This document shows positions 4,975 through 50,120 of a DNA stretch of 64,000 nt, in pieces. Within the stretch, counting starts at the first letter, position 1. Each line of letters opens with the position of its first letter. Where the stretch lies: contig NZ_AP027742.1 of assembly GCF_030296775.1 (NCBI RefSeq), positions 2,542,001-2,606,000 on the forward strand. Reading direction: 5' to 3'. Below the pieces are notes generated by a model. It had not been told where the DNA came from. It ran no database searches and saw nothing but the letters and a program-made list of their open reading frames with translations. A program made the translations under genes and the position numbers. The DNA comes from Claveliimonas bilis. Its GTDB lineage: Bacteria; Bacillota; Clostridia; Lachnospirales; Lachnospiraceae.

Positions 4975-6414
4975 AAGCACTATACCGACTCCTATCTGCA
5001 GTGACTCGGAGGGATAATTCGTATCCTCTTCTGGATTTTCCTCCCTGTCCGGGGTTTTTAGGCCTGCTTCTTTATTTTCTTCTTTGTTTTCTTCTTTTTT
5101 ACCGGAAGACACACTGGAAGAGCCGGTTCCGGCGGATGCAGCATCGGAAGCGGAAGCATTGTCACTATCCGAGGCCGATGACGCTGAAACATTCCCCATT
5201 CCACTGCTTCCTCCCGGCACCTGCGTCAGCGGCGGCAACACATCCTCTCCCTCTGTAGGTCTTGTCTCTCCGCCTCTGCTGCCTTCGATACCGGTTCCCT
5301 CCATCGTGTATTCCTCTGTCAGCTCCAGGATGTCTGAATCCAGAGTTGTCCCATCCGACAGTCTTTGGCTCATTTTATAATAAGTATAACTTTCCTCTTC
5401 CAGAAGATTATATGCAGGATACCAGCTTATCTGCTCTCCTTCAGATACTTCCTGGCTTTCCAGATCGCTCCATGTTCTTTTATCATCGGAGCCTTGCAGC
5501 GTAACTGTTCCCTCCTGCGGAACAAATGCGTCCATATGAAGGATAAGGCCGCTGTTCTGATAAGTTTCTGCAAAGGCCAGGAGAAAGTAGGGATTCGTAC
5601 TGGAGCCATACACCACCAGGCACCTCGGATTCTGATCTCTGAAAACAACATAATCATCCGGATAAGTACCCGTTATAACTGTGCGGACTCTTTCTTTCGG
5701 GAAGTCCGTATCTTGCCAGATCACCGGAATTGCTGTACTATCTGTCTTCCCGCTTTGATTGATCGTCACATCATCTTCAGCAGGCAGACAGGAAACCGAA
5801 AAATTTTCTTCTTCCGGAATCACAATGACCGGCATATCCTGATAGTTCTCCGCTGATGCCGCTGATACAACAGGCTTATCTGCCAGAATCATCCGGCCCT
5901 GACAGAAAAATTCGGGAAGCCCCATTCCTGTTTCTTCCCCATAGACAAAGAAAGAACCTTCTTCCTGTACAACTGCAGTATCTTCTGCCGAACCCGCCAA
6001 AATGCTGACGGAAATTAATGTCAGACTGCCCCCGGGACAAACATGGAAAATCCCTTCACTTCCTCCGGTTCCTTCCAGAGACAAAAAGGGCCACAGTTCC
6101 ATCTGTCCTTTCACATAAATTGTATGTCCGGCTGTTTTCACTGTAATATTTTTCCTGTATTTTCCGTTATCATAAAGATAATTCTCATCTTCCGGTACTA
6201 TAATGTCATCTGTCAATACAACAGTTCCGCCTTCGCTTCTGTGACTCTCAAGCCACTTCTTCCATTCTTCGTATGTAGCTACTGTATCATTGTCCTCCGT
6301 TTCAGAGGCATGAACATAGGCAAAATTCAGGAAAAATAATATTGTCGCAAAAACTATGACTTCTGCTATAATAACTATAACTAAATGTGGACGTTTGGCT
6401 TTCATCAATGCCAT
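4915..6414 (-). CDS. Serine-rich membrane-anchored surface protein
   Basis: A 499-residue exported protein. It has an N-terminal signal/anchor helix (about 10-33, then HASE), an outside region from 40 to 370 with beta-rich stretches and no family I recognise, a low-complexity linker (about 385-455) rich in Ser, Asp, Ala, Gly and Glu, and a C-terminal helix (about 472-493) ending RRKRR. The tail looks like a sortase signal but no LPXTG is present before the helix, so it is probably membrane-anchored. The start is supported by GGAAAGGA. It is divergent from the kinase gene at 6442 by 27 bp and overlaps the regulator gene end by 60 bp, suggesting it belongs to the same system, as sensor partner or target. 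Confidence 0.75.
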   Translation of the reverse strand: MALMKAKRPHLVIVIIAEVIVFATILFFLNFAYVHASETEDNDTVATYEEWKKWLESHRSEGGTVVLTDDIIVPEDENYLYDNGKYRKNITVKTAGHTIYVKGQMELWPFLSLEGTGGSEGIFHVCPGGSLTLISVSILAGSAEDTAVVQEEGSFFVYGEETGMGLPEFFCQGRMILADKPVVSAASAENYQDMPVIVIPEEENFSVSCLPAEDDVTINQSGKTDSTAIPVIWQDTDFPKERVRTVITGTYPDDYVVFRDQNPRCLVVYGSSTNPYFLLAFAETYQNSGLILHMDAFVPQEGTVTLQGSDDKRTWSDLESQEVSEGEQISWYPAYNLLEEESYTYYKMSQRLSDGTTLDSDILELTEEYTMEGTGIEGSRGGETRPTEGEDVLPPLTQVPGGSSGMGNVSASSASDSDNASASDAASAGTGSSSVSSGKKEENKEENKEAGLKTPDREENPEEDTNYPSESLQIGVGIVLSVCVVGGILLVFLFRRKRR

Positions 6415-6441
6415 TCTTCCTTTCCAGAGAGGTAAACTGCT

Positions 6442-35345: not shown

Positions 35346-37553
35346 TTATCCCATATAATCACTTTGTAGTGCTTCTGCCAAATTGCATTTCAGAATTTTT
35401 TTGCTCCCTATATAATATGCCAGTGTAACAAAGCCAAAAATCGCCGCGATAAAAATTACGATAGGAACAATCGGAGCCACTGACAAAAACTCCATTGGGT
35501 TCAGGTAACTTGCCGTTATCATAAACCAGACAAACAATACAGTGACCGGCAACGTAATCAGAACAGGACGCCCTGCAATAACAAGAGCCTCAATTCGAAA
35601 TATTTTACGCATACCTTCCGGCGTCATACCGATAGACATATACCTCGCAAACTCTCTTTTCCGTTGCCGGATAAAACCCAATGTATTGGAAAAGACATTG
35701 GCAATTCCAATCAGAGCAAGTAATGCACACACTGCCCCAATAATCAGCTTATAGCCATTTAGCATAGCGTCATTGTCTATTTTTTCCTGGACACGGTTTT
35801 CTATCTCAAGCATAAATTCATGCTCCAGGATATTTGTCAGTTCCATTTCTATCTTATTCAATTCAGTTAAGGTTCTATCTTTCGTGTCCAGTACGCGAAT
35901 ATATGCGTCTTGCTCTGCATTCCCAATCACTTCTTTGATCTGTTTCCACGTTGAAACCGAAAGGAACTGAACCAATACATAGTTACCGTATTCTTCTCTT
36001 AAAACCGGCGGCTCCTGTGTATAGCCCAAAACAGAGACTGTGACAGCAGTTGACGCGTCATCACAATTTTGTAAGATGATGGTGTCCTGTTCCTCAGTTA
36101 AAAACGGAACGTATTCTTTGTACCTAAAATTGCTGTTTACGCTGTCCCAGATACGGTTCAGAATCACACTCCCTGTCCCTGACGGAGAAACGCCGATCTG
36201 CTCACAGTATGCAGCAAAGCTGCTGTCATCCATAATGACAATAGGGACCTGGATAGTATAGGTGTCATCGGCAGCACTGACAGAGTTTCCGGCCAACTCC
36301 TCTATCCCTCCCAGACTTTCCACTTTCTTGCTGATGGCCTCCGTGGGAACAGAACTATAAGCCTCCGCCTTTTGATAAATCACGCTGTCTGTACCATCCA
36401 GCGCATGGATTTCATCTTCGTAAGTAAAATCCTCTATCGGAGTGTCTTTTACGGTTGCCATGACATCCCAAGCGTCCTGATATCGTTCAAAATACGTATG
36501 ATTCGTGCTGATTCCTGAAAGAGTAAAGAAGCACAGCATGAGTGTAAAGCCCAGGAAGGAAAGGGTTAAGGACAACGTAGAGGTTCTTAAGGCTTTCTTC
36601 TGCGCCTTCAGCGCATTACCGGCCAATTCGCCTTCTACTCCAAACAGCCGTGCAAGGATACGAGACTTTTTCCTACGTTTTAGCTGCAACTCGTCTATAT
36701 TTTTAATAGCTTCCAGCGGAGTCAGCTTGCTTAGTTTTCTGGCTGGCAGCCATGCGGAAATCAACACTGTCAGAACAGATACCAGGATTGTGATGACAAA
36801 TACAAGAGGATGATAAGTAAATACCGCATCACGCCTGCCCACAATGCCATCTGCAAGGACATTTACAATCTGTATAGTTCCGAAAGTCAAGGCAATCCCG
36901 ATAAAACTTCCGAGCAAAATTGGGATGGCACTAAGAACAGCCACCTCCTGCAAAAGGCAGGTACGAATTTGTCCCGGCGTTGCCCCTATACTGGAAAAAA
37001 TACCAAATTGATGAACACGGGCGTTCATGGATACGGCAAAGGAGTTATGAATAATCAAAACCAAAGATACCGATACAAGCAGAAGCAGAGCCAAATAAAA
37101 GGCCAGCAATAAGGGAGGGCTGGCATCCTGTGGATCATGGATAAAATATGTTGACAACAGCGATTCATGATACGCCACGGAACTGTCAGGGACTCCCAGT
37201 TTCTGTGCAATCAAGGGCATATCCTGATATACTGTCCTCATGTTGTAAAAGCAAATATCAATTACAAGGGTTTGCCCATCCGATAATTCTTCATTGACAG
37301 CAGCGGTTTTCACATTGGCAAAGTGTTCAATGTCGAATACCGCATTTTCTTTATATGTTCCTGTAATACGACCTTGCCAGTTTCCTTCTTCCAGGACAAT
37401 GGATTCTATCTCGTAATTCCAGAAATTGTAGAACAAGCCACACAGCAAAGACAGAAACAAAGCCGAAATAAACGCGGCAACAAGGACGGATAAGCTGGAG
37501 GCACGATTCTTTTTTATAAATCCGATTGAATAGTCTTTCCACATATCCTTCAC
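35346..37553 (-). CDS. FtsX-type ABC transporter permease
   Basis: A 735-residue permease with two FtsX domains: helix 1 (about 20-45), an outside domain (about 50-145), three helices to about 275, a second single helix (about 322-345), an outside domain (about 350-595) and three final helices. It forms an exporter or peptide-sensing transporter with the ATPase that overlaps it by four bases (GTGA). Together with the adjacent kinase and regulator it resembles antimicrobial-peptide response modules, though it has two outside domains, unlike BceB. The start is GTG. Confidence 0.85.
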   Translation of the reverse strand: MKDMWKDYSIGFIKKNRASSLSVLVAAFISALFLSLLCGLFYNFWNYEIESIVLEEGNWQGRITGTYKENAVFDIEHFANVKTAAVNEELSDGQTLVIDICFYNMRTVYQDMPLIAQKLGVPDSSVAYHESLLSTYFIHDPQDASPPLLLAFYLALLLLVSVSLVLIIHNSFAVSMNARVHQFGIFSSIGATPGQIRTCLLQEVAVLSAIPILLGSFIGIALTFGTIQIVNVLADGIVGRRDAVFTYHPLVFVITILVSVLTVLISAWLPARKLSKLTPLEAIKNIDELQLKRRKKSRILARLFGVEGELAGNALKAQKKALRTSTLSLTLSFLGFTLMLCFFTLSGISTNHTYFERYQDAWDVMATVKDTPIEDFTYEDEIHALDGTDSVIYQKAEAYSSVPTEAISKKVESLGGIEELAGNSVSAADDTYTIQVPIVIMDDSSFAAYCEQIGVSPSGTGSVILNRIWDSVNSNFRYKEYVPFLTEEQDTIILQNCDDASTAVTVSVLGYTQEPPVLREEYGNYVLVQFLSVSTWKQIKEVIGNAEQDAYIRVLDTKDRTLTELNKIEMELTNILEHEFMLEIENRVQEKIDNDAMLNGYKLIIGAVCALLALIGIANVFSNTLGFIRQRKREFARYMSIGMTPEGMRKIFRIEALVIAGRPVLITLPVTVLFVWFMITASYLNPMEFLSVAPIVPIVIFIAAIFGFVTLAYYIGSKKILKCNLAEALQSDYMG

Positions 37554-38230
37554 CGACCTTTCTGATCGCTGATGATTTTCCCATCCTCTATGGTTATAAT
37601 GCGATCTGCTTCTAAAGCAACCTTTTCGTCATGGGTAATCAACAGAATAGTCTGGTTCAGGTTGCGGTTTGACAATTTCAATAGATCAATAATTTCTTCT
37701 CCGTTTTTCCGATCAAGGTTCCCTGTTGGCTCATCAGCAAGTAAGAGGGCAGGACGATAGATCAAAGAACGGGCAATGGCCGCGCGCTGTTGCTGCCCGC
37801 CCGATAATTGGTTGGGAAGAAAATCCAGCTTATCTTCAATACCTAGCGAACGGACAATCTGGTCAAAATATTCCTGGTTGGGTTTCCGTTTATCTAACAT
37901 GAGCGGCATAAGGATATTTTTTCGGACGGTAAGCGTTGGAATCAAATTATAAAACTGATAGACCAGCCCCACTTTTCTACGCCTGAAAATCGCTGCCTGT
38001 GTTCGGTTCATCTTGGATATATCTGTTCCTTCTATCACTACTTTTCCCTCTGTGGGCTTATCCACACTGCCTAAAATATGCAGCAAGGTAGATTTTCCTG
38101 AGCCAGACGCACCCACGATTGCCACAAATTCTCCTTTTTGGATGGAAATGTCAATATGATCCAGAGCCACGACCTGATTATTTCCAGCGCCATATACCTT
38201 TCGTAAATTTTCACACTTTAGTATTTCCAC
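37550..38230 (-). CDS. ABC transporter ATP-binding protein
   Basis: A 226-residue MacB/LolD-class ATPase with [32 protein letters not shown] and LLLADEPTGNLD. It powers the permease at 35346. The start is GTG, eight or nine bases after AAGGAG. Located 64 bp after the kinase gene. Confidence 0.92.
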   Translation of the reverse strand: MEILKCENLRKVYGAGNNQVVALDHIDISIQKGEFVAIVGASGSGKSTLLHILGSVDKPTEGKVVIEGTDISKMNRTQAAIFRRRKVGLVYQFYNLIPTLTVRKNILMPLMLDKRKPNQEYFDQIVRSLGIEDKLDFLPNQLSGGQQQRAAIARSLIYRPALLLADEPTGNLDRKNGEEIIDLLKLSNRNLNQTILLITHDEKVALEADRIITIEDGKIISDQKGR

Positions 38231-38294
38231 GTCGCTTTCTCCTTTCTGTACTGCAGTTTATCTTGCGTACAGTATAGCAAAGTAAAGTGACATT

Positions 38295-39482
38295 TCAGTG
38301 ACTGTACAGCCTTATTTCAAAACATGCACCGCCGTTTCGTCGATTATAGGCAATAATCGTCCCGTTCTGTAACTCAAAGATAGAACGGGCAAGCGCCAGA
38401 CCAATTCCGATACCATTTCCTACTGCACGCTTGCCACGATAAAAGCGATCAAAAAGATGTGGTAAGTCCTCCTCATCAAAACCTGTCCCTTCATCCCATA
38501 TCCGAATTTCTGCATAAAGAGGATTACCTGAATACTCACAATAGACAATCCCGCCAGGCTGTGAATGCTCCATACAGTTTTTCATTAAATTGATGAAGGC
38601 TTCCATTGTCCATTCCAGATCACCGAAAAATTCAATACAGCCGTTTTCTAGTATCTCGATAAAAATATGACTATCTTGCAATATATCATTCAGATTTTCC
38701 GCTGCCAGATTAAGTGCTGTATAAAGATCAACTTTTTCGTGCTTTAACAGTAGCGTTCCTGCGTCAATCTTAGAAAGCATAAGCACGGATTCTTCCAGAC
38801 GGTTCAGCCTATCCAACTGCCTTTCAATCCGATCGGCATATTCATTGGCTGCTTCCTTCTTCATAAGCTGTAAAGACAAGAATGCTGCGGTAATCGGTGT
38901 TTTTAGCTGGTGTGCGATATTTGCCAGGTTTTCGGCGAAGTTTTTCCTTGCAGAAACGGCTGCTTCTCTGGTCTGATAGAGCGTTGTAACGGTTTTGTAT
39001 ATCTCGTCCTGTAATCTGGAAAAATCGTCTTCCTGTGTCTGTATCAGGGTTTCCCCAGCCCCTATGTTGACCCGCTCCAAATACTCCGTCAAATCAACAA
39101 TACGTTTTTGACTACGCCTGTGAAACAACCATGCTGCTAAGACAAATGCTCCAGAAACCATAAAAAATAACATGACAGGAAGAATAAAAGTATACGTTGG
39201 AATCCCTTTGCAAAACTCCTCTGCACGATAACCATATTTCCCCAAATAATTATTTTTTACTATCTCTTGTTCGCTCATTGAGTAATACCCTTTCAAACCA
39301 GACAACAACTGTGGCTCGGCTTCGGGGGAAGTTTCCAGAATGATTTCGCTGAATGCGGAAATATGTTGATAGGCTATCTGTCGATAGGTATGATAAAACA
39401 ACGCGGTTGTGAAAATTATCCCCATCAAGAGAACCGCGACTGGAAAAAGCAGTAGGATTCCCTGTTTTCTTCTTTCATTCAT
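38295..39482 (-). CDS. Sensor histidine kinase
   Basis: A 395-residue kinase with two helices (about 10-32 and 95-118) around an outside loop of about 60 residues, a HAMP-like linker, the H-box IAHQLKTPITAAFLS, the N-box LMKNCMEHS, DEGTGF and GIGIGLALARS. The catalytic parts are complete. The loop is larger than in BceS-type intramembrane kinases. Its ATG overlaps the stop of the regulator gene (ATGA). It likely reads an envelope stress and controls the transporter next to it. Confidence 0.9.
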   Translation of the reverse strand: MNERRKQGILLLFPVAVLLMGIIFTTALFYHTYRQIAYQHISAFSEIILETSPEAEPQLLSGLKGYYSMSEQEIVKNNYLGKYGYRAEEFCKGIPTYTFILPVMLFFMVSGAFVLAAWLFHRRSQKRIVDLTEYLERVNIGAGETLIQTQEDDFSRLQDEIYKTVTTLYQTREAAVSARKNFAENLANIAHQLKTPITAAFLSLQLMKKEAANEYADRIERQLDRLNRLEESVLMLSKIDAGTLLLKHEKVDLYTALNLAAENLNDILQDSHIFIEILENGCIEFFGDLEWTMEAFINLMKNCMEHSQPGGIVYCEYSGNPLYAEIRIWDEGTGFDEEDLPHLFDRFYRGKRAVGNGIGIGLALARSIFELQNGTIIAYNRRNGGACFEIRLYSH

Positions 39483-40150
39483 TTCGTATCCTCCATGCGG
39501 TAGCCAAAGCTACGGATTGTTTTTAAACAGAGCGGATGATGCAGCTTTTCTCTTAACCGTTTCATGCTAACCGTCAGCGTATTGTCATTGACATAGTTCC
39601 CGCTGTTATCCCAGATCTGTTCCAAAAGTTGTCTCCTAGTGACAGTTTTTCCCTTGTTTTCCAAAAGCAGCTGAAGAAGCTGATATTCCAACTGGCTAAC
39701 AATAACTTCTTGCTGCTGATAATAGACGGCAGCTTTTTCTTTATCCAACATCAGGTCATCGCAAAACAATTTCATTGCTTCTGCACCCTTTGCTCTGCGA
39801 AGCAGTGCCAGAATACGCGAATGAAGAACGGCAAGATCGAAAGGCTTTACCACATAATCGTCTGCACCATTCTGAAAACCGCTGACAATATCGCCGGAGT
39901 CGCCGCGAACCGTCAGATAGATAACGGGTAAATCATCCCATCTATCCCGAATCCAACGGCACAATTCGTTTCCGTGACCATCCGGCATATTCCAATCCAG
40001 CAAAATAACAGCAGGCAAATGGCTGATCAGTGCTTTTTTTATATCGGTAATAGCGCCAAAGATGGTTACCTTGCAGTTTTTCTGTTCCAGATATTCTTTT
40101 ACGGATTTAGCAATGATTTCATCATCTTCCGCGTAATAAACCTCAATCAC
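39479..40150 (-). CDS. OmpR/PhoB-family response regulator
   Basis: A 223-residue regulator: receiver with YYAEDDE, phospho-acceptor in ILLDWNMPDGHG and lysine in VKPFD; winged helix ending in RSFGYRMED. The GTG start at 40150 follows GGGAGAAG. It overlaps its kinase by four bases, heads the module, and is preceded by a 10-codon mini-ORF (40221-40253). Confidence 0.9.
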   Translation of the reverse strand: MIEVYYAEDDEIIAKSVKEYLEQKNCKVTIFGAITDIKKALISHLPAVILLDWNMPDGHGNELCRWIRDRWDDLPVIYLTVRGDSGDIVSGFQNGADDYVVKPFDLAVLHSRILALLRRAKGAEAMKLFCDDLMLDKEKAAVYYQQQEVIVSQLEYQLLQLLLENKGKTVTRRQLLEQIWDNSGNYVNDNTLTVSMKRLREKLHHPLCLKTIRSFGYRMEDTK

Positions 40151-40220
40151 AATGATTCTTCTCCCTTCTGACGATCAGATTTTCGTCTGCCATCTAATGG
40201 TTTTTTCGCACTTTGGGGAA

Positions 40221-40253
40221 TCAGTCAAATTCTTTCCGTGTTATATAGCCCAT
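40221..40253 (-). CDS. Possible leader peptide upstream of the response regulator
   Basis: A 10-codon ORF, reading MGYITRKEFD, has an excellent ribosome binding site (TTGGAGG, 40261-40267) seven bases upstream. It lies 70 bases before the regulator gene. It could be an attenuating leader or the start of a truncated gene. The bases between contain a small GACGA/TCGTC hairpin. Confidence 0.35.
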   Translation of the reverse strand: MGYITRKEFD

Positions 40254-40310
40254 GATTATACCTCCAACTTTTACATTCATTATATTTTGAGCGAACGAAA
40301 GACGCAACAA

Positions 40311-40360
40311 AGAAAGCTGCAGCATCTATGATTTCTTAATCATTGATACTGCAGCTTTCT
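40311..40360 (-). terminator. Terminator of the hydrogenase operon
   Basis: AGAAAGCTGCAG (40311-40322) and CTGCAGCTTTCT (40349-40360) form a perfect 12-bp stem just after the hydA stop, with a longish inner loop. It is followed on the minus strand by a short T-rich tract. Confidence 0.6.
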
Positions 40361-40371
40361 TCTATTTTCCT

Positions 40372-42093
40372 TTAATGCTCGGTATGCAAAAGCATATGCG
40401 CCTTATGCGACATCGGTTTTTCCATATATTCATCATACAATTTCTGAATATCCGGATTTTCATGTGAGAAACGTAAATCTGCATTCTTATCAAGTGCATA
40501 CAGCGTCTTTCCTCTTTCAAATGCCAGCTCTTCACCATCATGGATCGGCTGTCCGCCGCCGCCGACACATCCTCCCGGACATGCCATAACTTCTACAAAG
40601 TCATACTTGACTTCTCCCTTTTCCATCTTATCCAGAAGGTTTCTCGTATTTCCAAGCCCGCTGACAACTGCAGTGCGAACTTTTATTCCGTTGATATTAA
40701 GCTCTGCTTCCATCACACCGTCATTTGCGTTAAACCCGGAGCTTCTCACTGCCTTAAATGCATCCGCCTCCGGATTTTCTCCGGTAATAATAGCGTAAGC
40801 GGTACGAAGAGCAGCCTCCATAACTCCACCGGTTGCACCGAAGATAACGCCGGCGCCAGTTCCGTCGTGCATTGGTGAATCGCTCTCAATGTCCTGAAGG
40901 GTATCCGGACTGATATGAGCAGAGCGCATCATCTTCACAAGCTCTCTTGTAGTAATAACAGTATCTACACCATGTCCTGCATATTCATTATAGAAAAGTT
41001 CTTTCTCCCGTTCTGCCTTTTTTGCCACACATGGCATAACGGAAACGGTATAAATCTCCTCCGGAGATTTTCCAATTTTTTCTGCAAAATAAGTCTTCAT
41101 AACTGCCCCGAACATTTCCTGTGGAGATTTTGCCGTGGACAGATATTTTACAAGATGCGGATACTGGGATTTTGCAAATCTCACCCATCCCGGACAGCAG
41201 GATGTAAACATCGGGCGGTCTTTGAGTTCTCCGGACGTAAATCTTTGCACAAACTCGTTGGCTTCCTCCATAATGGTCAGATCAGCGGAAAACACAGTAT
41301 CAAATACATAATCTACTCCCATTCTCTTCAAGGAGTCCATAATCTTTCCAATAGTTGCCTCTTCCGGTTTCAGACCGATCTGCTCGCCCCAGGATGTTCT
41401 GACAGCCGGAGCCACCTGAACCACAACGGTTTTCTTCTCATCGGCAATGGCATCCCATACTTTCTCTGTATCATCTCTTTCACGAAGCGCGCCCACCGGA
41501 CAGTGCGTAATACATTGTCCGCACAAAGAACAGGGGGCATCCTCGATCTTTCCATGTCCGGCTACATTTACAGTTGTTCTGGAACCTGTCCCTTCTACAT
41601 CCCACACGGAAAGTTTCTGTACTTTGTCACAGACCTGAATACATCTCATACATTTAATACATTTTGCAGAGTCTCTGATCAGCGGGAAATCCTGATTCCA
41701 CGGCTGACGCTCAATCTCCTTTTCAAATGGAATATCCAAAATATTCAGATCATTTGCGATTTTCTGCAGGCTGCAGTTTCCGCTTCTTGCACAGGTCACA
41801 CACTGACAGTCATGCTGCGACAGGATCAGTTCCACATTCGTTCTCCTGTCTTTACGCACTTTGGGACTGTTTGTGTGGATCACCATCCCTTCCTCTGCCA
41901 CATTATTGCAGGAGGTGATCAGACGATTTTTCCCTTCCAGTTCCACCACACAAACACGACAGGCTGCAATCTCATTAATCCCTTTCAGGTAGCACAGCTT
42001 TGGGATTGGTATCCCATTTTGCCTTGCAGCTTCCATAATCGTTGTATTTTCTTTTACGGAAATCTGTTTTCCATCTATTGTCAGGTTTACCAT
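40372..42093 (-). CDS. hydA: [FeFe]-hydrogenase catalytic subunit
   Basis: A 573-residue cytoplasmic [FeFe]-hydrogenase that makes or takes up H2. The N-terminus has a [2Fe-2S] domain (CYLKGINEIAACRVC), a His-Cys3 cluster (HDCQCVTCARSGNC) and two [4Fe-4S] clusters (CIKCMRCIQVC and CSLCGQCITHCPVGA). The H-cluster motifs are TSCCPGW, MPCVAKK and ACPGGCVGGGG. The C-terminal 60 residues form the small-subunit domain. This M3 layout matches NAD(P)-linked hydrogenases. It overlaps the flavoprotein gene by seven bases, so the two make a functional pair. Confidence 0.95.
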   Translation of the reverse strand: MVNLTIDGKQISVKENTTIMEAARQNGIPIPKLCYLKGINEIAACRVCVVELEGKNRLITSCNNVAEEGMVIHTNSPKVRKDRRTNVELILSQHDCQCVTCARSGNCSLQKIANDLNILDIPFEKEIERQPWNQDFPLIRDSAKCIKCMRCIQVCDKVQKLSVWDVEGTGSRTTVNVAGHGKIEDAPCSLCGQCITHCPVGALRERDDTEKVWDAIADEKKTVVVQVAPAVRTSWGEQIGLKPEEATIGKIMDSLKRMGVDYVFDTVFSADLTIMEEANEFVQRFTSGELKDRPMFTSCCPGWVRFAKSQYPHLVKYLSTAKSPQEMFGAVMKTYFAEKIGKSPEEIYTVSVMPCVAKKAEREKELFYNEYAGHGVDTVITTRELVKMMRSAHISPDTLQDIESDSPMHDGTGAGVIFGATGGVMEAALRTAYAIITGENPEADAFKAVRSSGFNANDGVMEAELNINGIKVRTAVVSGLGNTRNLLDKMEKGEVKYDFVEVMACPGGCVGGGGQPIHDGEELAFERGKTLYALDKNADLRFSHENPDIQKLYDEYMEKPMSHKAHMLLHTEH

Positions 42094-43919
42094 AATCTCT
42101 CACGCCCTCCTTTGAATATTCCATAGCCGAAGTGGTCGCAGCGCAGACAGCGTCCCGCTTCCTGCTTTGCTTCCTTTTCTGTCATGCAGTTTTCCACTCC
42201 CTCGAAATCGCATACACGTTCGCATGCTTCCCTCTCTGTCAGGTTTACCCTTCCGCAAGGAGAACGGTCGGAAAGATTGGCCTCCGGGATCTCCACATCA
42301 CAGGAAATCTCATGGTGATAGCCAAGGTATTCATCAATATTTGCCGCAACAACTTTTGCTGCCGCAATAGCAGTGATTACAGAAGCCGGGCCACTGGCAC
42401 AGTCGCCTCCTGCAAATACACCAGGCATATTTTCAAAGGTTCCGGTACTCTTCGTACGGATCTTCCCTCTCTCTACCGGGATTCCCGCCTCCTCAAAATG
42501 CCGCGTTTCAATATTCTGCCCGATGGCTACGATCAGCACATCGCAAGGGATGTATACATCCGGCTCTCCGGTAGGACGGATACTGGCTCTTCCATCTTTG
42601 ATGGCGCTTACCATCTGCGGCGTTACATAGATACCTTTTACATGATGGTTTTCATCTACATCGATTGCTGCCGGAGCTTTCAGAGTCTGCAATTCAATTC
42701 CCTCTGCCACTGCTCCTTCAATTTCCTGTGGCAGTGCTGTCATGTCTGCCACACGGCGGCGGTAAACAATGCTGACCTTCTTTGCACCAAGGCGTTTTGC
42801 AGTACGCACTGCATCCATAGATACATTTCCGCCTCCAATAACAGCAACTTCCTTGCCGGTCAGATCCATGATCATATTTTTGCCCACGTTTCTAAGGAAC
42901 TGTACTGCAGAGAGAACTCCGTCAGCATCTTCTCCTTCCAGCCCCAGTTTTTTATCCGTACTTGCTCCGATCGTAATCAGCACAGCGTCATACTCTTTAC
43001 GAAGCTGCTGGATTGTAATATCCTGTCCGATCTTCAGGCCGTATTTTACCTGTACGCCAGTCTTCAAAATGCAGTTGATATCATCTTCCAGTCTTTCTTT
43101 CGGCAGACGGTAATTAGGGATTCCATATCGCAGCATACCTCCAAGTTTTGGAAGCATCTCATATACAACTGCCTGATGTCCCATCAGCTGCAGGTAATAA
43201 GCGGCACTCAATCCTCCAGGTCCTCCTCCAAGAACCGCTATCTTTTTACCGGTAGACGGCGCACATTCCGGCGGATCCACCTCTCCTGCAAAGTCTGCTG
43301 CCACTCGCTTCAGTCCCCTGATATTAATGGAATCATCCACCATATTTCTCCGGCATCTCGCCTCACATGGATGTTCACAGATAAATCCGCATGTAGTAGG
43401 GAACGGATTATCCTTCCGGATCAGCCGTACGGCATCTGCATATCGTCCCTCTCCTACCAGCGCTATGTAACCCGGAACGTCCACGTGAGCCGGACATAAG
43501 GCCACACAGGGAACCGGCTGATTGTAGGTGCAGGTACAGCGTCCGTTCTGGATATGTTCAATATAGTCATCCCGGTATCCGATCAGTCCTTTATAAACCA
43601 TATTGGCTGCCTCATAGCCAATGGCACAGTCTGCTGATTCCATAATGGAGAGTGCTGTCTCTTCCATATAGTCCAGCGTTTTCATTGTTGCTTTTCCGTC
43701 CAGCACATCTTTGATAAAACGATTAAGCTGGCCAAGTCCGATTCTGCACGGCACACATTTTCCGCACGTCTGTGCATGGCACAGTTCCAGAAAGGCTCTT
43801 GCCATATCTACCGGACATAAGCCCGGAGGACTGGATTCAATTCTTCTTTCCAGATCCTTGTAGAGACCTTCCATGACGATCCGCGCTCTGTTTGGAGATA
43901 CAATCTCTAATCTGCTCAT
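42087..43919 (-). CDS. Hydrogenase flavoprotein subunit: NuoF iron-sulfur domain fused to GltD-type NADPH oxidoreductase
   Basis: A 610-residue protein. The N-terminal 125 residues match only the end of NuoF, the [4Fe-4S] domain with CGKCVPCRIGLGQL and a fourth cysteine in SADCAIG. A GltD-like part follows: cysteine motifs around CTCTYNQPVPCVALCP and CGFICEHPCEARC, an FAD site VLGGGPGGLSAAYY and an NADPH site VIGGGNVSMDAVR with VYRRR. The NADH/FMN domain of NuoF is missing. It probably carries electrons between NADPH and HydA. The start at 43919 follows AAGGAAAAGAA; a longer frame to 44117 only translates the hairpin-rich leader. Confidence 0.88.
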   Translation of the reverse strand: MSRLEIVSPNRARIVMEGLYKDLERRIESSPPGLCPVDMARAFLELCHAQTCGKCVPCRIGLGQLNRFIKDVLDGKATMKTLDYMEETALSIMESADCAIGYEAANMVYKGLIGYRDDYIEHIQNGRCTCTYNQPVPCVALCPAHVDVPGYIALVGEGRYADAVRLIRKDNPFPTTCGFICEHPCEARCRRNMVDDSINIRGLKRVAADFAGEVDPPECAPSTGKKIAVLGGGPGGLSAAYYLQLMGHQAVVYEMLPKLGGMLRYGIPNYRLPKERLEDDINCILKTGVQVKYGLKIGQDITIQQLRKEYDAVLITIGASTDKKLGLEGEDADGVLSAVQFLRNVGKNMIMDLTGKEVAVIGGGNVSMDAVRTAKRLGAKKVSIVYRRRVADMTALPQEIEGAVAEGIELQTLKAPAAIDVDENHHVKGIYVTPQMVSAIKDGRASIRPTGEPDVYIPCDVLIVAIGQNIETRHFEEAGIPVERGKIRTKSTGTFENMPGVFAGGDCASGPASVITAIAAAKVVAANIDEYLGYHHEISCDVEIPEANLSDRSPCGRVNLTEREACERVCDFEGVENCMTEKEAKQEAGRCLRCDHFGYGIFKGGRERLW

Positions 43920-43954
43920 TTCTTTTCCTTCTTTCCTCTCAATGTTATTAGTAC

Positions 43955-44092
43955 CCTGGGGAAGCCCTCCAGCAGCTTCCTGCCACGCCTTGCAAGCTCG
44001 AACCCTTCGGGTTCTCCCTCGCGGGCTTCGCCCTATAGAAATACAAGATGTCCAAATTGCATGCAAGCATGCATTTGTACCTCTTGTATTTC
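43955..44092. repeat. Hairpin-rich palindromic element in the hydrogenase leader
   Basis: Three hairpins are packed in about 140 bases: GAACCC-ttc-GGGTTC (44000-44014), GGGC-ttc-GCCC (44023-44033) and a long imperfect stem of about 26 bp (44038-44064 and 44067-44092) with TTGCATGC/GCATGCA at its tip. The content is more GC-rich than the flanks. It looks like an extragenic palindromic repeat; no second copy is seen in this window. It lies 36-170 bases upstream of the flavoprotein start, so it would be transcribed with the operon if the promoter is at the far side. The rest of 43920-44178 has no gene. Confidence 0.55.
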
Positions 44093-44178
44093 TGCACGGC
44101 TCATTGCCTATGCGCATATTATACCATTCAACTTTCCGGATGTAACCAGCTTTGCCGTAAGTAGATAATTTAACAATA

Positions 44179-45060
44179 CTATTCGGATATATCCTGCATA
44201 GAAGCGCGATACTGTGTGGGTGTCATGTGGTAACTTTTTTTAAATACCCGGTTAAAATAAGAAATATTCTGAAATCCCGTATCCAGCGCCACATCTGTCA
44301 CGCTCTGACTGCTCTCGGCTAATTTTCCGGCAGCGATCTCCATTCGATACTGGTTCAGATATTCAATGCAGGTCATATTCATATATTTTTTGAAGAAACG
44401 CATAAAATAATATTCGCTGAAATGGCATATCCCGGCAAGCTCCGATACTGTCACCTGTCTCTGATAGTTCTCTTTTATATACCGGATCACATTTTTCAGC
44501 TTTTCCAGCACTTCTTCATTCTCTGATGTGATTCTTTTATGAGGGACATATTTGTACAAGAGATAGAAAAACTGATATAAAAGCGCCTCTGACTCCAGTT
44601 CATAGCCCTCTCCCTTTCCAAGGAAACTTTTTTTCAGCTTTTCAAACACCTCTGCCAGGCCGGAGCTTTCCACCGCATCCTTTTTAATAACCGCCGGAAA
44701 GCGCACTTCTCCCGCTCTGGCAGGTCCGACGTATTTTACCCCGCATACATCCTTTCCGGTTCCTAGCATTTGAGGATGAAACACAAAACTGTCCGTTTCC
44801 AGTTCTCTGACCTGCCCTTCCGGTATACCGTGAAGCATCCCGGAAGCGAAAAACAGAAGATCTCCCTCGCCGGCATGACAGGCTTCCAGGTCAACAAGAT
44901 AGGTACAGCTCCCTTTCCTGATATATGTGATTTCAAATTCCTCATGCCAGTGAACCGGCAAGGCGGAAAGTCCCGCCGGGTACAGACAGTGATAATATTC
45001 TATGGGAAAGAGGGGACTTCCATGATTTGTCTTTTCCAAATATTCTTCTTTTTGTTCCAT
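44179..45060 (-). CDS. AraC-family transcriptional regulator
   Basis: A 293-residue regulator. The N-terminal cupin (about 20-110, with PVHWHEEFEITYIRKG) binds an effector, probably a sugar; the C-terminal pair of helix-turn-helices (about 195-290) contains HFSEYYFMRFFKKYMNM and GFQNISYFNRVFKKSYHMTP. It is divergent from the GH31 gene with 114 bases between, so it most likely controls that gene. Confidence 0.9.
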   Translation of the reverse strand: MEQKEEYLEKTNHGSPLFPIEYYHCLYPAGLSALPVHWHEEFEITYIRKGSCTYLVDLEACHAGEGDLLFFASGMLHGIPEGQVRELETDSFVFHPQMLGTGKDVCGVKYVGPARAGEVRFPAVIKKDAVESSGLAEVFEKLKKSFLGKGEGYELESEALLYQFFYLLYKYVPHKRITSENEEVLEKLKNVIRYIKENYQRQVTVSELAGICHFSEYYFMRFFKKYMNMTCIEYLNQYRMEIAAGKLAESSQSVTDVALDTGFQNISYFNRVFKKSYHMTPTQYRASMQDISE

Positions 45061-45083
45061 ATTTTCACCTCACAGCAGGATTG

Positions 45084-45125
45084 TGTTAGAATCTGTTAGA
45101 AATATGCAAGAAAATCTCATCTTGC
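45084..45125. promoter_or_regulatory. Candidate AraC-type operator in the AraC/GH31 divergent region
   Basis: TGTTAGAA occurs twice exactly 10 bases apart (45084-45091 and 45094-45101), followed by an inverted repeat GCAAGA/TCTTGC (45106-45111, 45120-45125). A TATAAT lies at 45132-45137, before the GH31 start, without a usable -35. Direct repeats one helical turn apart next to a -35-less promoter are what an AraC activator site would look like. Confidence 0.5.
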
Positions 45126-45174
45126 AGTTTATATAATATTAGCATAATCAATCGTCAGCTGAAAGGAGAAAACA

Positions 45175-47256
45175 ATGATTCGCAGATATACTTTTGGAAA
45201 ACCATTTCCTACAGAGGCAGTTGTAAAGGAGCTGCCTTATGAAACTGATGCACTGCCTTTCTTTTCTATAGAGGATAATCGTCTAAGTCTTCCGCTTGAA
45301 AATGACATCCCTGTATATGGACTTGGAGAACAGGTAAGGGGCATTAATAAAAGAGGCTGGCTCTATGTCAGCAATGCTACTGATGATCCCAATCATCTGG
45401 AACACACTCATTCCCTCTACGGCGCCCACAATTTTCTTCTGATCGGCGCTTCCCACCCCTTCGGTGTGTTTATTGACTATCCCGGTACGCTTACTTTTGA
45501 CATTGGATATACCCGCCGGGATCAAATGTACATCCAGCCTTCACAGTGGGATCTGGATATCTATATCATAGAATCCCCTGATGACCGCCTTGTCTCTATT
45601 GTACGCCTCTTCCGACAGCTCATCGGGAAAAGCTATATCCCGCCAAAGTGGGCTTTCGGTTACGGGCAGAGCCGCTGGGGTTATCAAAATGAAGCGGATA
45701 TCCGCAAAGTTGCAAAAGGACACAGGGAAGCCGGCATTCCTCTGGATGCCATCTATATGGATATCGACTATATGGTCCGCTATGAGGATTTCACTGTATC
45801 CGAAGAGAAGTTTCCGGATCTTCCCACCCTTGTACAGGATATGAAATCCCAGGGCATACACCTTGTCCCCATTATTGATGCAGGCGTAAAGATCGAAGAG
45901 GGATACAGCGTCTACGAAGAAGGCGTGCAAAACAACTATTTCTGTAAAGAAGAGGACGGCACAGATTTCGTGGGAGCTGTCTGGCCGGGAAGAGCCCATT
46001 TCCCTGACATGCTCAACCCCAAAGCCCGCCGCTGGTTCGGACTGAAGTACAAGTATCTTCTTGATATGGGAATCGACGGCTTCTGGAATGACATGAACGA
46101 ACCCGCTATTTTTTACTCTGAAAAACGTCTGCAAAAAGTATTGGATCAGGTGGCTGATTTAAAAGGCCAGAATCTTGACCTGAATAAAAATAATGAAATG
46201 CTGGGACTTGTCAATACTCTTGCCAACAACCCGGAAGACTACAGAAGCTTTTACCATGAACCGGGAAATGGTTGGGAAAAAGTCCGCCATGACAAAGTCC
46301 ATAACCTGTACGGCTTCAATATGACCCGGGCTGCCGGGGAAGCTTTCGATGAGCTGGAACCGGATAAAAGAATCCTGATGTTTTCCCGTTCTTCCTATAT
46401 TGGTATGCACCGGTACGGAGGAATCTGGCAGGGAGATAATCTGTCCTGGTGGTCCCATCTCCTTTTGAACATCAAAATGATGCCTTCCCTCAACATGTGC
46501 GGATTTCTCTATACCGGCGCAGATCTGGGCGGATTCGGGGCAGATACCACGGAAGATCTCCTGCTTCGCTGGCTGCAGTTCGGAATCTTCACTCCTTTGA
46601 TGAGAAATCATTCCGCCATGGGAACAAGGGAACAGGAAGCTTACCAGTTCGACAATATGGAAGCACTGAAAAACACCATAAAACTGCGCTACTGCCTTCT
46701 TCCTTATCTCTACAGCGAGTATATGAAGGCAGCCCTTACAGACGACATGATGTTCCGGCCCCTGGCCTTTGACTATCCGCAGGATCCTTTTGCATCCAAG
46801 GTAGAAGACCAGCTCCTTCTGGGCGACGGACTGATGCTTTGTCCCGTATATCAGCAGAATGCTTCCGGACGTTATGTTTATCTGCCGGAAGACATGCTCC
46901 TTATTACCGCCTCCGGTCCGGATGATATCCGTTTCCGGGAAATGAGCGCCGGACATCACTATATAGAAGCTTCTCTGACAGAGGTTGTCTTCTTCCTGCG
47001 CCGGGGACATCTTCTTCCGCTTGCACCGGCCGCCGAAAGTGTAAAAGATCTGGATCCTTCTCATCTGACATTAATCGGGTATCTGAACGGTCCATGTACT
47101 TACACCCTGTACGATGATGACGGAATCAGCAAAGATTTTGACCTGGATAAGCATGCAGAGCCAATCACTGTATCCCCGGACGGATCTGTGAAGTACAGCG
47201 GCAGCAGACGCCTGACTTTTGATGCAAAAATTTTCAAGGCACTTCCTTCTTTATAA
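45175..47256 (+). CDS. GH31 alpha-glucosidase
   Basis: A 693-residue intracellular glycoside hydrolase of family 31, with no signal peptide. The nucleophile is D306 in WNDMNEPAIF and the acid/base is D421 in WQGDNLSWW; PPKWAFGYGQSRWGY and RSSYIGMHRYGG are also conserved. It closely resembles in pattern the GH31 enzyme of Ruminococcus obeum that acts on short alpha-glucosides. It probably splits isomaltose-type or other alpha-linked oligosaccharides; exact linkage is not certain. RBS AAAGGAG. No sugar transporter is beside it. Confidence 0.92.
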   Translation: MIRRYTFGKPFPTEAVVKELPYETDALPFFSIEDNRLSLPLENDIPVYGLGEQVRGINKRGWLYVSNATDDPNHLEHTHSLYGAHNFLLIGASHPFGVFIDYPGTLTFDIGYTRRDQMYIQPSQWDLDIYIIESPDDRLVSIVRLFRQLIGKSYIPPKWAFGYGQSRWGYQNEADIRKVAKGHREAGIPLDAIYMDIDYMVRYEDFTVSEEKFPDLPTLVQDMKSQGIHLVPIIDAGVKIEEGYSVYEEGVQNNYFCKEEDGTDFVGAVWPGRAHFPDMLNPKARRWFGLKYKYLLDMGIDGFWNDMNEPAIFYSEKRLQKVLDQVADLKGQNLDLNKNNEMLGLVNTLANNPEDYRSFYHEPGNGWEKVRHDKVHNLYGFNMTRAAGEAFDELEPDKRILMFSRSSYIGMHRYGGIWQGDNLSWWSHLLLNIKMMPSLNMCGFLYTGADLGGFGADTTEDLLLRWLQFGIFTPLMRNHSAMGTREQEAYQFDNMEALKNTIKLRYCLLPYLYSEYMKAALTDDMMFRPLAFDYPQDPFASKVEDQLLLGDGLMLCPVYQQNASGRYVYLPEDMLLITASGPDDIRFREMSAGHHYIEASLTEVVFFLRRGHLLPLAPAAESVKDLDPSHLTLIGYLNGPCTYTLYDDDGISKDFDLDKHAEPITVSPDGSVKYSGSRRLTFDAKIFKALPSL

Positions 47257-47323
47257 AGTTTTTTGTATAATGTCTGTAAAAGAACTTTTGCGGGCGGCGC
47301 AGACCGCCATAAGGAGGGACGTT

Positions 47324-48208
47324 ATGCAGCTTGCACTTCGAGGTGACGGCCGGGAAATGAAATCTCACGGAGACTACGGGTTTCCGCTTCTTATCAGCCT
47401 GGAACATCTGTCTGCCTATGAGATGAGCAGTTTCGCCTGCCATTGGCATCCGGAGCTTGAATTTACTTTAATCCTGAAAGGTGAAATACTGTACCAGATC
47501 AATGACCACACGTATCGCCTCAAAGCCGGAGAAGGCGTATTCTGCAATTCCAACATGCTCCATACCGGCAGAAGAGCAGGCAGTTCGGACTGTACTTATC
47601 TGTCAGTCACTGTCAACCCGTCGCTCCTTTACGGTTATGAAGCCAGCCTTATACAGACAAAATACATTCAGCCGGTTACAAAAAACCCCCTCTTCCCATC
47701 TGTCCCCTTTACCGAAGGGGAAGCATGGGGAAAGGAGGTTCTCCTTTACATGCAGCAGATCTGGCAGCTCTATCAGGAACCAACATCTGACTATGAACTG
47801 GAGCTTTTGATCCGTCTGTACCAGATCTGGGCGCTTCTCTACCGTCATCTGGATTTCTCCCAGCAGCCCTCTTTGAATGATGCCAGGGAACTGGAGCGTC
47901 TCCGCATGATCATTACATTTATTCATGAACACTACATGGATCACATTACACTGGAGGATATCGCCTCATGCGCCAGCATGTGCAAAAGCGAGTGCTGCCG
48001 TCTGTTTAAACGAAACATGAAACAGTCGCTTTTTGACTATCTTCTTCACTACCGGATCCGTCAGAGCCTGCCTCTTTTAACTATGGGAAAAGACAGTATC
48101 ACTGATATTTCCATACAGTGCGGTTTTTCCAGTCCCTCCTACTATACAAAACTGTTCCGCCGCTTTATGGACTGCACTCCAAGGGAATATATGGCTTCCC
48201 ACCGATAG
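47324..48208 (+). CDS. AraC-family transcriptional regulator
   Basis: A 294-residue regulator with an N-terminal cupin (CHWHPELEFTLILKGEI) and C-terminal double helix-turn-helix (CASMCKSECCRLFKRNMKQS and CGFSSPSYYTKLFRRFMDCTP). The ATG at 47324 follows AAGGAGG; a longer frame to 47219 overlaps the GH31 gene and is not needed. It is 67 bp after GH31 and may be co-transcribed, though a TATAAT at 47266-47271 could give it its own promoter. Second AraC protein of the locus. Confidence 0.9.
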   Translation: MQLALRGDGREMKSHGDYGFPLLISLEHLSAYEMSSFACHWHPELEFTLILKGEILYQINDHTYRLKAGEGVFCNSNMLHTGRRAGSSDCTYLSVTVNPSLLYGYEASLIQTKYIQPVTKNPLFPSVPFTEGEAWGKEVLLYMQQIWQLYQEPTSDYELELLIRLYQIWALLYRHLDFSQQPSLNDARELERLRMIITFIHEHYMDHITLEDIASCASMCKSECCRLFKRNMKQSLFDYLLHYRIRQSLPLLTMGKDSITDISIQCGFSSPSYYTKLFRRFMDCTPREYMASHR

Positions 48209-48225
48209 GATGCCGGACTGATCGT

Positions 48226-48897
48226 TTAAAATTCCTTTTTGCTTAAAATTCTTGTGCTGATCCCGGCAGATACGACCAGGGCAGCTACGGCAATCAGGGC
48301 GATTACAGCTGCAACCCCTGCCGTTCCCAGCTTCTGACCTGTTTCGATCAGCCGATTCAGATTCATGATATTGGCATCCAATGCCTTTGCCAGTCCATAG
48401 ACCACTACGAATACTGCCATAAAAACTGCGATCAAGGCGATCCTTCCTTTTTCTGCTCCGAATTTTAGCTGAAAAGGAATCATCAGCGCAAGGAATCCGG
48501 CCAGACATGCCGCTCCGCTTCCAAATGTCACAAGCAGCATGGTCCAGTCTGCTGAAATATCCTGAACCCGGAAATAGGCTCCCTCAATAACCAGCATAAT
48601 AAACATCGTCAAAATTCCCATAGACAGTCCGAAAATATATTTTTCTACTGCATAAGTGCTCCTGCGGAAAGGAAGCGTAAACAGATAGGCATTTCCGTTG
48701 TCATATTCATCGTATCCAATGGTGCTCAGTACAAAAAACGAACTGACAAAACCGACATAACAAACAACATAGGAGGCGGAGGCAGCCGCTCCTCCTGTTC
48801 CGGAAATCAACAGAAAGATCGCCACAACAAATACAGCAGCAAAAAAATTCTTCTGTCCCATCAAAAGTTTAAAATCCTTGATCAATAATCCTTTCAT
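48226..48897 (-). CDS. ABC-2 type transporter permease
   Basis: A 223-residue permease with six helices, starting MKGLLIKDFKLLMGQKNFF, a common opening in ABC-2 permeases. It shares a four-base overlap (ATGA) with the ATPase gene and probably forms a drug or peptide exporter with it. It ends opposite the AraC gene with 17 bases between the convergent stops. Confidence 0.85.
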   Translation of the reverse strand: MKGLLIKDFKLLMGQKNFFAAVFVVAIFLLISGTGGAAASASYVVCYVGFVSSFFVLSTIGYDEYDNGNAYLFTLPFRRSTYAVEKYIFGLSMGILTMFIMLVIEGAYFRVQDISADWTMLLVTFGSGAACLAGFLALMIPFQLKFGAEKGRIALIAVFMAVFVVVYGLAKALDANIMNLNRLIETGQKLGTAGVAAVIALIAVAALVVSAGISTRILSKKEF

Positions 48898-49745
48898 AAC
48901 TCTTCTCCCTGAATCATCATCATAATCACGTCGTCAATTCCACTGTTCTCAATCACTGCCTTAGGGTAATTCTCGGCATAAAACTGCTTTTGATCTGTCA
49001 GAGCGCTGTATCCGAAATTTTCTTTCTTTACCCGGAGAATATATTGTTTATCCATCTGGGCAAACTCCTTGTGATCCACCTTTAAAACAGCATACCTGCT
49101 AAGCAGGATATCAGTATCCTCATGAAAAATAATCTTTCCGTCGCTGATCATATACAGATCGTCGCAGATTCCTTCCAGATCTGTGGAAATATGGGAACTG
49201 ATGAGAATGGAACGATTTTCGTCCTCCTCCATATATTCTCTCAACATATCCAAAAGTTCATCCCTTGCCACCACGTCCAGTCCGGCTGTCGGTTCGTCAA
49301 GAAGCAAAAGGTCCGTACTGTGGGAAAGAGCGATCAAAAGCTTCAGCTTCGCTTTCATTCCGGTCGAAAACTCCTTGATCTTCTTCTTTTCCGGCAGGCG
49401 GCATTTTCTGCAGCTTTCAAGAAATTTTCCCTTGTCAAAATCCGGATAGAATCCTGACAGCATTGCCGCTGTATCTTTGACGGTCAGATAACCGCTTATA
49501 CCGGAGTTAGACAGAACGACTCCTATTTTCTGTCTATCTTTCATAGTCAGGGAAGCCGCGTCTTTGCCCATAATGGTAATTTTCCCGCCGTCCGGCCGGA
49601 TCAGTCCGAGAACAGCCTTAAAGGTTGTGCTCTTTCCGGCTCCATTTTGCCCTACCAGTCCGGTAATGCATCCCGGTTCTACATGCAGAGAACAGTTCAG
49701 TGTAAAGCGGTCATAATGCTTCGTAACATTTTCCAATTTCAACAT
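48894..49745 (-). CDS. ABC transporter ATP-binding protein
   Basis: A 283-residue ATPase of the BcrA/CcmA class: GQNGAGKSTTFKAVLG, EFSTGMKAKLKLLIAL signature, LLLLDEPTAGLD and ISSHISTD. The C-terminal 60 residues are a dimerisation/regulatory extension. Preceded by GGAGG. It is in an operon with the GntR regulator and the permease, the layout of B. subtilis ytrAB-like genes. Confidence 0.92.
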   Translation of the reverse strand: MLKLENVTKHYDRFTLNCSLHVEPGCITGLVGQNGAGKSTTFKAVLGLIRPDGGKITIMGKDAASLTMKDRQKIGVVLSNSGISGYLTVKDTAAMLSGFYPDFDKGKFLESCRKCRLPEKKKIKEFSTGMKAKLKLLIALSHSTDLLLLDEPTAGLDVVARDELLDMLREYMEEDENRSILISSHISTDLEGICDDLYMISDGKIIFHEDTDILLSRYAVLKVDHKEFAQMDKQYILRVKKENFGYSALTDQKQFYAENYPKAVIENSGIDDVIMMMIQGEEL

Positions 49746-49748
49746 AGC

Positions 49749-50120
49749 CTATTCCTCCAAAATGAGTGTAAATAATTCTTTTAAATCTTCATCCTTCATT
49801 CCATATCTTCTGCCTTTTTGAATGGCCAGTTCAAAATCGGCTTCTACTTCCTTTCGCTTTTCTTCCTTCATCAGTTCTGTATTAAACGCGGCAATATAGG
49901 TACCTTTTCCGTGTACAGTAACTGTGAATCCTTCCTGCTCCAGGCTGTCATATGCTTTTTTCACCGTCAGGGCGCTGATCTTCAGCTCTTTGGACAAGGT
50001 CCGGACGGAAGGAAGCGCTGTGTTTTCTGTCAGTTCTCCTTCCATGATCAAAGCTTTGATCTGCTCGACGATCTGTTCGTAAATAGGAACCATGGATGAA
50101 TGGTTAATGATGATCTTCAT
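49749..50120 (-). CDS. GntR-family regulator, YtrA subfamily
   Basis: A 123-residue repressor with a GntR winged helix (SMVPIYEQIVEQIKALIMEG, LPSVRTLSKELKISALTVKKAYDSLEQEGF) and a short C-terminal dimerisation helix, which marks the YtrA subfamily. The ATG at 50120 is chosen because AAGGAGG (50127-50133) lies six bases away; the ATG at 50126 touches that site and the longer frame to 50291 covers the promoter. It heads the ABC operon and probably represses it. Confidence 0.9.
   Translation of the reverse strand: MKIIINHSSMVPIYEQIVEQIKALIMEGELTENTALPSVRTLSKELKISALTVKKAYDSLEQEGFTVTVHGKGTYIAAFNTELMKEEKRKEVEADFELAIQKGRRYGMKDEDLKELFTLILEE

Follow-up and report, generated by a model that had tools for sequence, protein, structure and literature searches.

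A group A2 [FeFe]-hydrogenase gene pair of Claveliimonas bilis as a probable NADP(H)-linked enzyme without FMN

A 64,000-nucleotide stretch of the Claveliimonas bilis genome (GCF_030296775.1, contig NZ_AP027742.1, positions 2,542,001 to 2,606,000 of the forward strand; hereafter the window, in which positions are counted) encodes at 40372–43919 an [FeFe]-hydrogenase catalytic subunit, HydA, and a partner flavoprotein. It is proposed, with a probability of roughly 0.7, that this pair forms a soluble, two-subunit hydrogenase of group A2 that works reversibly as an NADP(H):H+ oxidoreductase, with neither bifurcation nor flavin mononucleotide (FMN). The basis of this proposal is the gene pair itself, its domains and cluster ligands, their conservation, the independence of the pair from HydB and the reuse of the partner module with formate dehydrogenase.

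The partner gene lies upstream and hydA directly downstream on the same (minus) strand. The features of the pair are as follows.

42087–43919, minus strand: partner gene, an NADH_4Fe-4S plus GltD-type flavin adenine dinucleotide (FAD)/NAD(P) protein of 610 residues (coordinates include the stop codon); ATG at 43919, after aggaaagaaggaaaag
43554–43808, minus strand: NuoF-type [4Fe-4S] tail of the partner (PF10589; Pfam, 2.5e-22), with ligands C52, C55, C58 and C98 counted from Met 1
43284–43544, minus strand: Fer4_20 region of the partner (PF14691; Pfam, 3.3e-18), in which two [4Fe-4S] clusters are expected
42357–43244, minus strand: FAD/NAD(P) domains of the partner (PF07992; Pfam, 2e-31), with GGGPGG and GGGNVSMD...VYRRR
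42087–42093, minus strand: seven-base overlap, ATGGTAA, of the partner stop and hydA start codons, from the sequence
40372–42093, minus strand: hydA, group A [FeFe]-hydrogenase catalytic subunit of 573 residues (stop codon likewise included; TIGR02512)
41866–42093, minus strand: N-terminal [2Fe-2S] domain of HydA (Fer2_4; Pfam)
40555–41433, minus strand: H-cluster domain of HydA (Pfam and translation), with TSCCPGW, MPCVAKKAE and MACPGGCVGGGGQP

A first-pass annotation, made from the letters of the window, had placed the pair and its overlap exactly to the base. It had also described the partner as a NuoF [4Fe-4S] tail joined to a GltD-like part without the FMN/NADH domain, HydA as the multidomain M3 type, and hydB and hydC as absent from the vicinity; each description is borne out. 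No hydB or hydC was seen among open reading frames (ORFs) of at least 80 residues at 36000–50000. The FMN/NADH domain Complex1_51K (PF01512) was not detected in the partner among Pfam families up to an E-value of 0.01; the HydB of this genome, run alongside as a positive control, matches PF01512 at 2.5e-45 and carries a C-terminal ferredoxin-like dicluster. The NCBIfam model nuoF_fam matches residues 36–124 of the partner only, scoring 35.5 bits where the cut-off is 558.65.

Ligands in the Fer4_20 region of the partner are C138, C142, C181, C185, C189 and K204, together with C591 and C594 near the C terminus; any assignment of these to individual clusters is provisional, being drawn from homologues. 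The rows used for conservation were picked by motif, such that C52, C55, C58, G362, G364 and N365 are conserved by selection; K204, C98 and C138–C189 lie outside the selection motifs. Conservation of C591 and C594 was seen only in a 16-row alignment and seven further rows, as the 115-row set ends before them. The predicted structure of the partner has a mean predicted local distance difference test score of 80.7 with both ends poor, and its GltD part matches the nearest solved chains by Foldseek. By sequence and Foldseek, these chains are 9bov_A, 8oh5_C (StnC), 9n5u_A and then NfnL.

HydA contains Fer2_4, NADH-G_4Fe-4S_3, a Fer4 dicluster, Fe_hyd_lg_C (8e-93) and Fe_hyd_SSU by Pfam, and is thus the M3 form with [2Fe-2S], His-Cys3 [4Fe-4S], dicluster and H-cluster domains. 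It scores 457.6 bits on TIGR02512 (cut-off 405.95) and has the L1–L3 motifs of the H-cluster in its translation, as expected of a group A2 catalytic subunit. All 40 A2 HydA rows (39 distinct, the window HydA appearing twice) retain the ligands of the H-cluster and of the FeS clusters. The row filter passed 43 distinct, motif-picked rows in which C299, C355 and the 505–509 region are conserved by selection; position 300, where Cys or Ser was allowed, was not fixed in this way. This position is Cys (TSCCPGW) in all 40 A2 rows, a residue that passes protons in CpI; it is Ser in four comparison rows (one A3, three long-type) and likewise Cys in the bifurcating HydA1 8a6t_A. In a 15-row tree, A2 HydA separated from the one A3 and three long-type HydA with support of 100/100. 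HydF is encoded in the genome (553.6 bits, cut-off 325.55). A fragment 82% identical to A2 HydA residues 460–573 was also observed in a 126-residue frame at G000:C1:2093535-2093876 (L035, about 6536-6877); it may be what remains of a second hydA of the A2 type.

By its domains, the window pair belongs to HydDB group A2, a class already catalogued but uncharacterised; the novelty implied by the first-pass annotation does not survive, since HydDB defined this organisation in 2016. HydDB named the group 'glutamate synthase-linked (putative)', left its role undetermined and suggested NAD. The partner has PF14691 and PF07992, a NuoF tail only and no PF01512, in agreement with the A2 domain rule as judged by Pfam, where HydDB uses CDD. 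The HydDB wording 'immediately downstream of hydA' does not describe these loci, where the partner is upstream both in the window and in the 88 hydA-linked loci compared; that wording is read here as an input instruction rather than a biological criterion. Group A3 (HydABC) is defined by a full NuoF-like HydB with FMN plus HydC, and the pair has neither PF01512 nor a recurring third gene. In more recent papers, a predicted A2 enzyme is placed beside cooS in Anaerobutyricum (2024; PMC11338639), A2 is grouped with fermentative hydrogenases (2022, rumen; PMC9562222), and A2 is rated as moderately abundant, with a call for it to be characterised (2025, gut; PMC12578642).

The module recurs at E ≤ 1e-100 in 18 of the 61 genomes around the window's own; among the 18, G049 has the long form described below, G033 has only a formate dehydrogenase-linked form, and G030 and G031 have two copies each. 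A scan of named genomes yielded at least 80 loci among the matches listed, a figure that is not a prevalence; titles are mostly of Clostridia (Lachnospiraceae, Oscillospiraceae, Peptostreptococcus, Pseudoramibacter), and also include Anaerovibrio. Neighbours were counted in 94 listed loci (L040–L133), 93 of which have a short-type match above 500 bits; the long-type L053 falls below 500 bits and outside the 93. Some contigs are counted twice among the 93 (e.g. L042/L081 and L052/L056), and offsets were taken from BLAST ends, not from the stop codon of each locus. A catalytic gene lies directly downstream on the same strand in 91 of the 93 loci, the two misses being contig ends; it is hydA in 88 and a formate dehydrogenase gene in three. 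Because the offset of the window recurs in 85 of the 91 loci with a visible downstream gene, all 85 with hydA, the pairing is not due to chance.

In a class-wide search, hydA stood next to the module in 16 of 16 short-type loci, the window's own included. No third gene recurs beside the pair in the 80 named loci and the window (ORFs of at least 90 residues, flanks up to 6 kb). Neighbouring ORFs cluster into the module (73 loci), hydA (72) and an ATP-binding cassette (ABC) ATPase (12, either strand); beyond these, only a response regulator (5 loci) and two sets of antisense frames (8 and 7 loci) are present in at least five loci. The unit is a stand-alone bicistron. At one locus, L132:2514-7338(+), the module shares a single 1026-residue frame with an N-terminal part that resembles an aldo/keto reductase, and hydA is broken into frames of 322 and 262 residues, through decay or assembly error.

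The module is also used with another catalytic subunit. In L048, L049 and L050 it is followed by a protein of 900–930 residues, the N-terminus of which matches the first 207–214 residues of HydA (35–40% identity) and the remainder of which is a molybdopterin formate dehydrogenase, as Pfam confirms for L048; Pfam was run on this one of the three and on two (L197, L200) of six more distant module proteins. In a 36-row tree, the three formate dehydrogenase-linked modules nest within the hydA-linked group with starred support. The window module, with PF10589, PF14691 and PF07992 but no PF01512, beside a catalytic subunit with Fer2/NuoG-type N-terminal domains, has the composition expected of the beta module of an NADP-dependent formate dehydrogenase. 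FdhB of the NADP-dependent formate dehydrogenase of Moorella thermoacetica is described in PMC5736913 as having 4Fe-4S, ferredoxin-binding and NADP-binding domains. The purified Moorella enzyme (genes sfrB2, sfrA2 and fdhF3) accepted NADPH as its sole reductant, according to PMC13040438.

The six more distant proteins are 33–36% identical to the partner and keep the cluster ligands and K204, save for one gap; L197 and L200 have the same three Pfam domains and no Complex1_51K. In L199 and L200 the next gene encodes a protein with HydA-like N-terminal FeS domains. In L197, L198 and L201, a 4Fe-4S plus GltD protein of roughly 630–635 residues was seen by eye beside genes resembling those of complex I (nuoA, B, C, D), on the opposite strand to the module in L198; this proximity suggests that the protein serves complex I as an entry point for NAD(P)H at these three loci. 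The partner may be seen as a plug-in NADP(H) module that is paired with a hydrogenase or a formate dehydrogenase.

In the proposed mechanism, the partner would serve as the input and output module for NADP(H), which would exchange hydride with the partner FAD. Single electrons would then pass through the two Fer4_20 [4Fe-4S] clusters and the NuoF-type tail into HydA, where its NuoG-like clusters would relay them to the H-cluster, with neither bifurcation nor FMN. Such an enzyme would operate close to equilibrium and act as a two-way valve linking NADPH and H2, releasing H2 from NADPH when H2 is low and reducing NADP+ when H2 is high. At pH 7, the H2 couple has an E0' of -414 mV. For the NADPH couple in cells, an E' of -370 mV is given in PMC13040438. 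The equilibrium calculated from these two values lies near 0.03 atm H2, below which NADPH can drive H2 release and above which H2 can reduce NADP+. If the mechanism is correct, carriers can trade NADPH for H2 directly. Whether group A2 works in this way is directly testable.

NADP(H) is suggested by the nucleotide-binding site. In all 115 short and all 23 long rows, the first two Arg residues of VYRRR are unchanged. An RR(R) motif follows the second Rossmann strand, a feature associated with NADPH. Entry of electrons through the GltD flavin with use of NADPH, as the first-pass annotation had it, stands as the best reading, given the homology to StnC, NfnB and GltD, the RR(R) motif and the domains of the Moorella formate dehydrogenase; from these homologues we infer NADP(H) as the substrate, and likewise the direction of the reaction.

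Simple transfer is suggested by the cluster next to the FAD. In PMC10482914, the FAD of StnC is reported to be non-bifurcating, with an adjoining cluster bound by three Cys and K170, whereas a GltD-type FAD bifurcates in NfnB. K204 of the partner aligns with StnC K170 and does not vary among the 115 short and 23 long forms compared; Glu occupies this position in Pyrococcus furiosus NfnL and in the genome's own NfnB-like protein. In NfnB, that Glu is the ligand of the FAD-proximal cluster, and this NfnB-type feature is absent from the 115 short rows, all of which have Lys. The lack of both an FMN core and an NfnA makes a plain exchange of electrons in either direction likelier than bifurcation. 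The comparison thus strengthens the NADPH idea and weakens the 'electron bifurcation of another kind' that the first-pass annotation had also raised, the HydBC-type FMN core being absent and the Lys of the non-bifurcating StnC being universal among short rows.

Several points weigh against a non-bifurcating NADP(H) enzyme. The third Arg of VYRRR is found in 112 of 115 short rows but few long rows, and the six distant proteins have Ser or Thr there; owing to this variability, YRRR is no firm mark of NADPH. HydA reaches 754.4 bits on the NCBIfam model for NADH-dependent A6 enzymes (cut-off 765), which marks a genuine likeness to HydA of the NADH type. R271, equivalent to the N5-contacting Arg of NfnB, is conserved in all rows and therefore does not discriminate, and the Lys ligand at the FAD-proximal cluster is suggestive only. 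Model confidence is low around C591 and C594. The likeness to Moorella FdhB and Geobacter SfrB is an analogy drawn from paper descriptions, not sequences. Finally, no biochemical study of an A2 pair was found in the literature searched, which lay mostly outside subscription papers.

Among rival explanations, an enzyme of the same build could be specific for NAD(H) and couple H2 oxidation to NAD reduction, as the HydDB table text suggests and as the closeness of HydA to NADH-linked models would allow; this is unlikely given the invariance of the first two YRRR Arg residues in 115 of 115 rows, the binding of NADP(H) at that site by StnC and NfnB, and the NADP specificity of the Moorella formate dehydrogenase. 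A role in glutamate synthase, which the HydDB class name and text and the GltD homology of the partner bring to mind, is hardly credible: in the 80 named loci and the window, no gltB-like gene or further neighbour turns up repeatedly next to the pair, the catalytic subunits found with the module are HydA and formate dehydrogenase, and the partner is below cut-off in all three GltD models (TIGR01316, TIGR01317 and TIGR01318). To our knowledge, GltD lacks an NADH_4Fe-4S tail. Identity as the small subunit of glutamate synthase was accordingly rejected. It is also very improbable that the active enzyme is a HydABC variant that borrows HydB, and with it FMN, from a HydABC encoded elsewhere. The window genome does contain a single HydB at E ≤ 1e-60 by whole-genome search (C1:2400813-2402651, outside the window, a 613-residue open frame) with its own HydA beside it (C1:2399076-2400785), about 180 kb from the window pair. 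However, HydB at this threshold is present in 19 and missing in 13 of the 32 genomes with the module (these include G033, which has HydB and the formate dehydrogenase form only), and 10 of these 13 genomes have a completeness of 90% or more with contamination of 5% or less. A2 HydA also stands apart from the A3 and long-type HydA in the 15-row tree. Because 13 of the 32 carriers lack HydB, the pair is independent of it and the borrowing candidate was discarded; the conserved link to a NuoF FMN domain elsewhere, which the first-pass annotation had named as fatal to its own proposal, did not materialise.

The pair could instead bifurcate or confurcate at the GltD-type FAD, such that NADPH and reduced ferredoxin jointly drive H2 formation with ferredoxin docking on the N-terminal clusters of HydA. 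Accessory clusters accept ferredoxin in single-subunit hydrogenases, and HydA retains them; NfnB provides a precedent for a bifurcating FAD of this type, and R271 near N5 is conserved. Against this stand the Lys that replaces the NfnB Glu in all rows, as in non-bifurcating StnC, the lack of any NfnA-like or HydBC-like gene recurring nearby, and the calculated proximity of the NADPH and H2 potentials (from -370 mV), by which coupling is not required; bifurcation is thus an unlikely account of the pair. Its boldest version, a minimal bifurcating hydrogenase in which a single GltD-type FAD with a Lys-ligated cluster would couple NADPH and ferredoxin to H2 without FMN, HydB or HydC, is decidedly doubtful.

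A long form of the module was also observed, in open frames of about 1010–1140 residues (L053:7079-10168(-), L150–L161, L203 and L204), where a full HydB is fused to GltD. By Pfam on L053 and L203, the HydB part comprises thioredoxin-like, FMN, SLBB (in L053) and 4Fe-4S tail domains, and GltD stands where HydB has its C-terminal ferredoxin-like dicluster. A hydA lies 3' of the long form in 13 of 13 distinct loci checked (5281-7113(-) in L053). With both an FMN/NADH and an FAD/NADP site, this may be the more interesting hydrogenase. Long branches set the GltD parts of short and long forms apart in the 36-row tree, a comparison with three true long rows and a single, very distant outgroup; a fourth 'long' row, L132, is the short-type module fused to the aldo/keto reductase-like part.

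Candidate expression signals flank the pair.

44159–44174, minus strand: upstream element GTTAAATTATCTACTT, 5' of the -35 and kept in close relatives
44118–44146, minus strand: likely promoter, GTTACA-17-TATAAT with a TG extension (10 of 12 positions matched)
40310–40361, minus strand: probable terminator of the bicistron, a 13-bp stem followed by a T-rich tail, read from the sequence

Promoter-like sites are no commoner than in shuffles (five found, shuffle mean 7.5), and the stem 3' of hydA was not listed in that form by the signal scan. The GTTAAATTATCTACTT element is retained with small changes in six of seven relatives compared, and by strict pattern in 2 of 93 module loci. A genome-wide pattern search revealed no shared regulon for it: there are seven other matches, each with a mismatch and four of them copies of an unrelated repeat, and the reversed control pattern gave two. 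Between the promoter and the partner gene, a strongly folding dispersed repeat (43986–44127; leader z -6) was observed, which has 13 genomic places of at least 95 nt, its own copy counted, and 26 rows in all; it is absent from the 500 bases upstream of the partner gene in seven relatives checked. Rfam at gathering scores gave no matches at 36000–50000. Downstream of the separate hydA, L034:7724-9067(-) holds a 448-residue frame that by eye resembles a group II intron reverse transcriptase.

Of known systems, HydABC (group A3) shares the HydA domains, the cluster set and the NuoF [4Fe-4S] tail, but the window pair has a GltD part in place of the FMN/NADH domain, HydC and the ferredoxin-like tail of HydB. 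The StnABC/NfnABC transhydrogenases (8oh5, 9bov, 9n5u) share the GltD part, the Lys at the FAD-proximal cluster and the FAD and NADPH sites; unlike the partner, StnC carries a fused NuoG-like part and passes electrons to a bifurcating, FMN-containing StnAB core, which the window pair lacks. NfnAB likewise has a GltD-type FAD/NADPH part with Fer4_20 clusters, but its FAD-proximal cluster has Glu rather than Lys, and the window pair has an H-cluster subunit and no NfnA. The Moorella FdhAB resembles the pair in the described domains of its beta subunit and in NADPH as the only reductant, a likeness by description, and differs in having a formate dehydrogenase as its catalytic subunit. A 2024 paper, by its title, reportedly deals with a hexameric [FeFe]-hydrogenase of Moorella that reduces NADP+. 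HydDB group A2 itself matches in having a group A HydA beside a GltD-domain protein without NuoF; where HydDB proposes NAD and glutamate synthase, however, the evidence from the window pair favours NADP(H) and no glutamate synthase.

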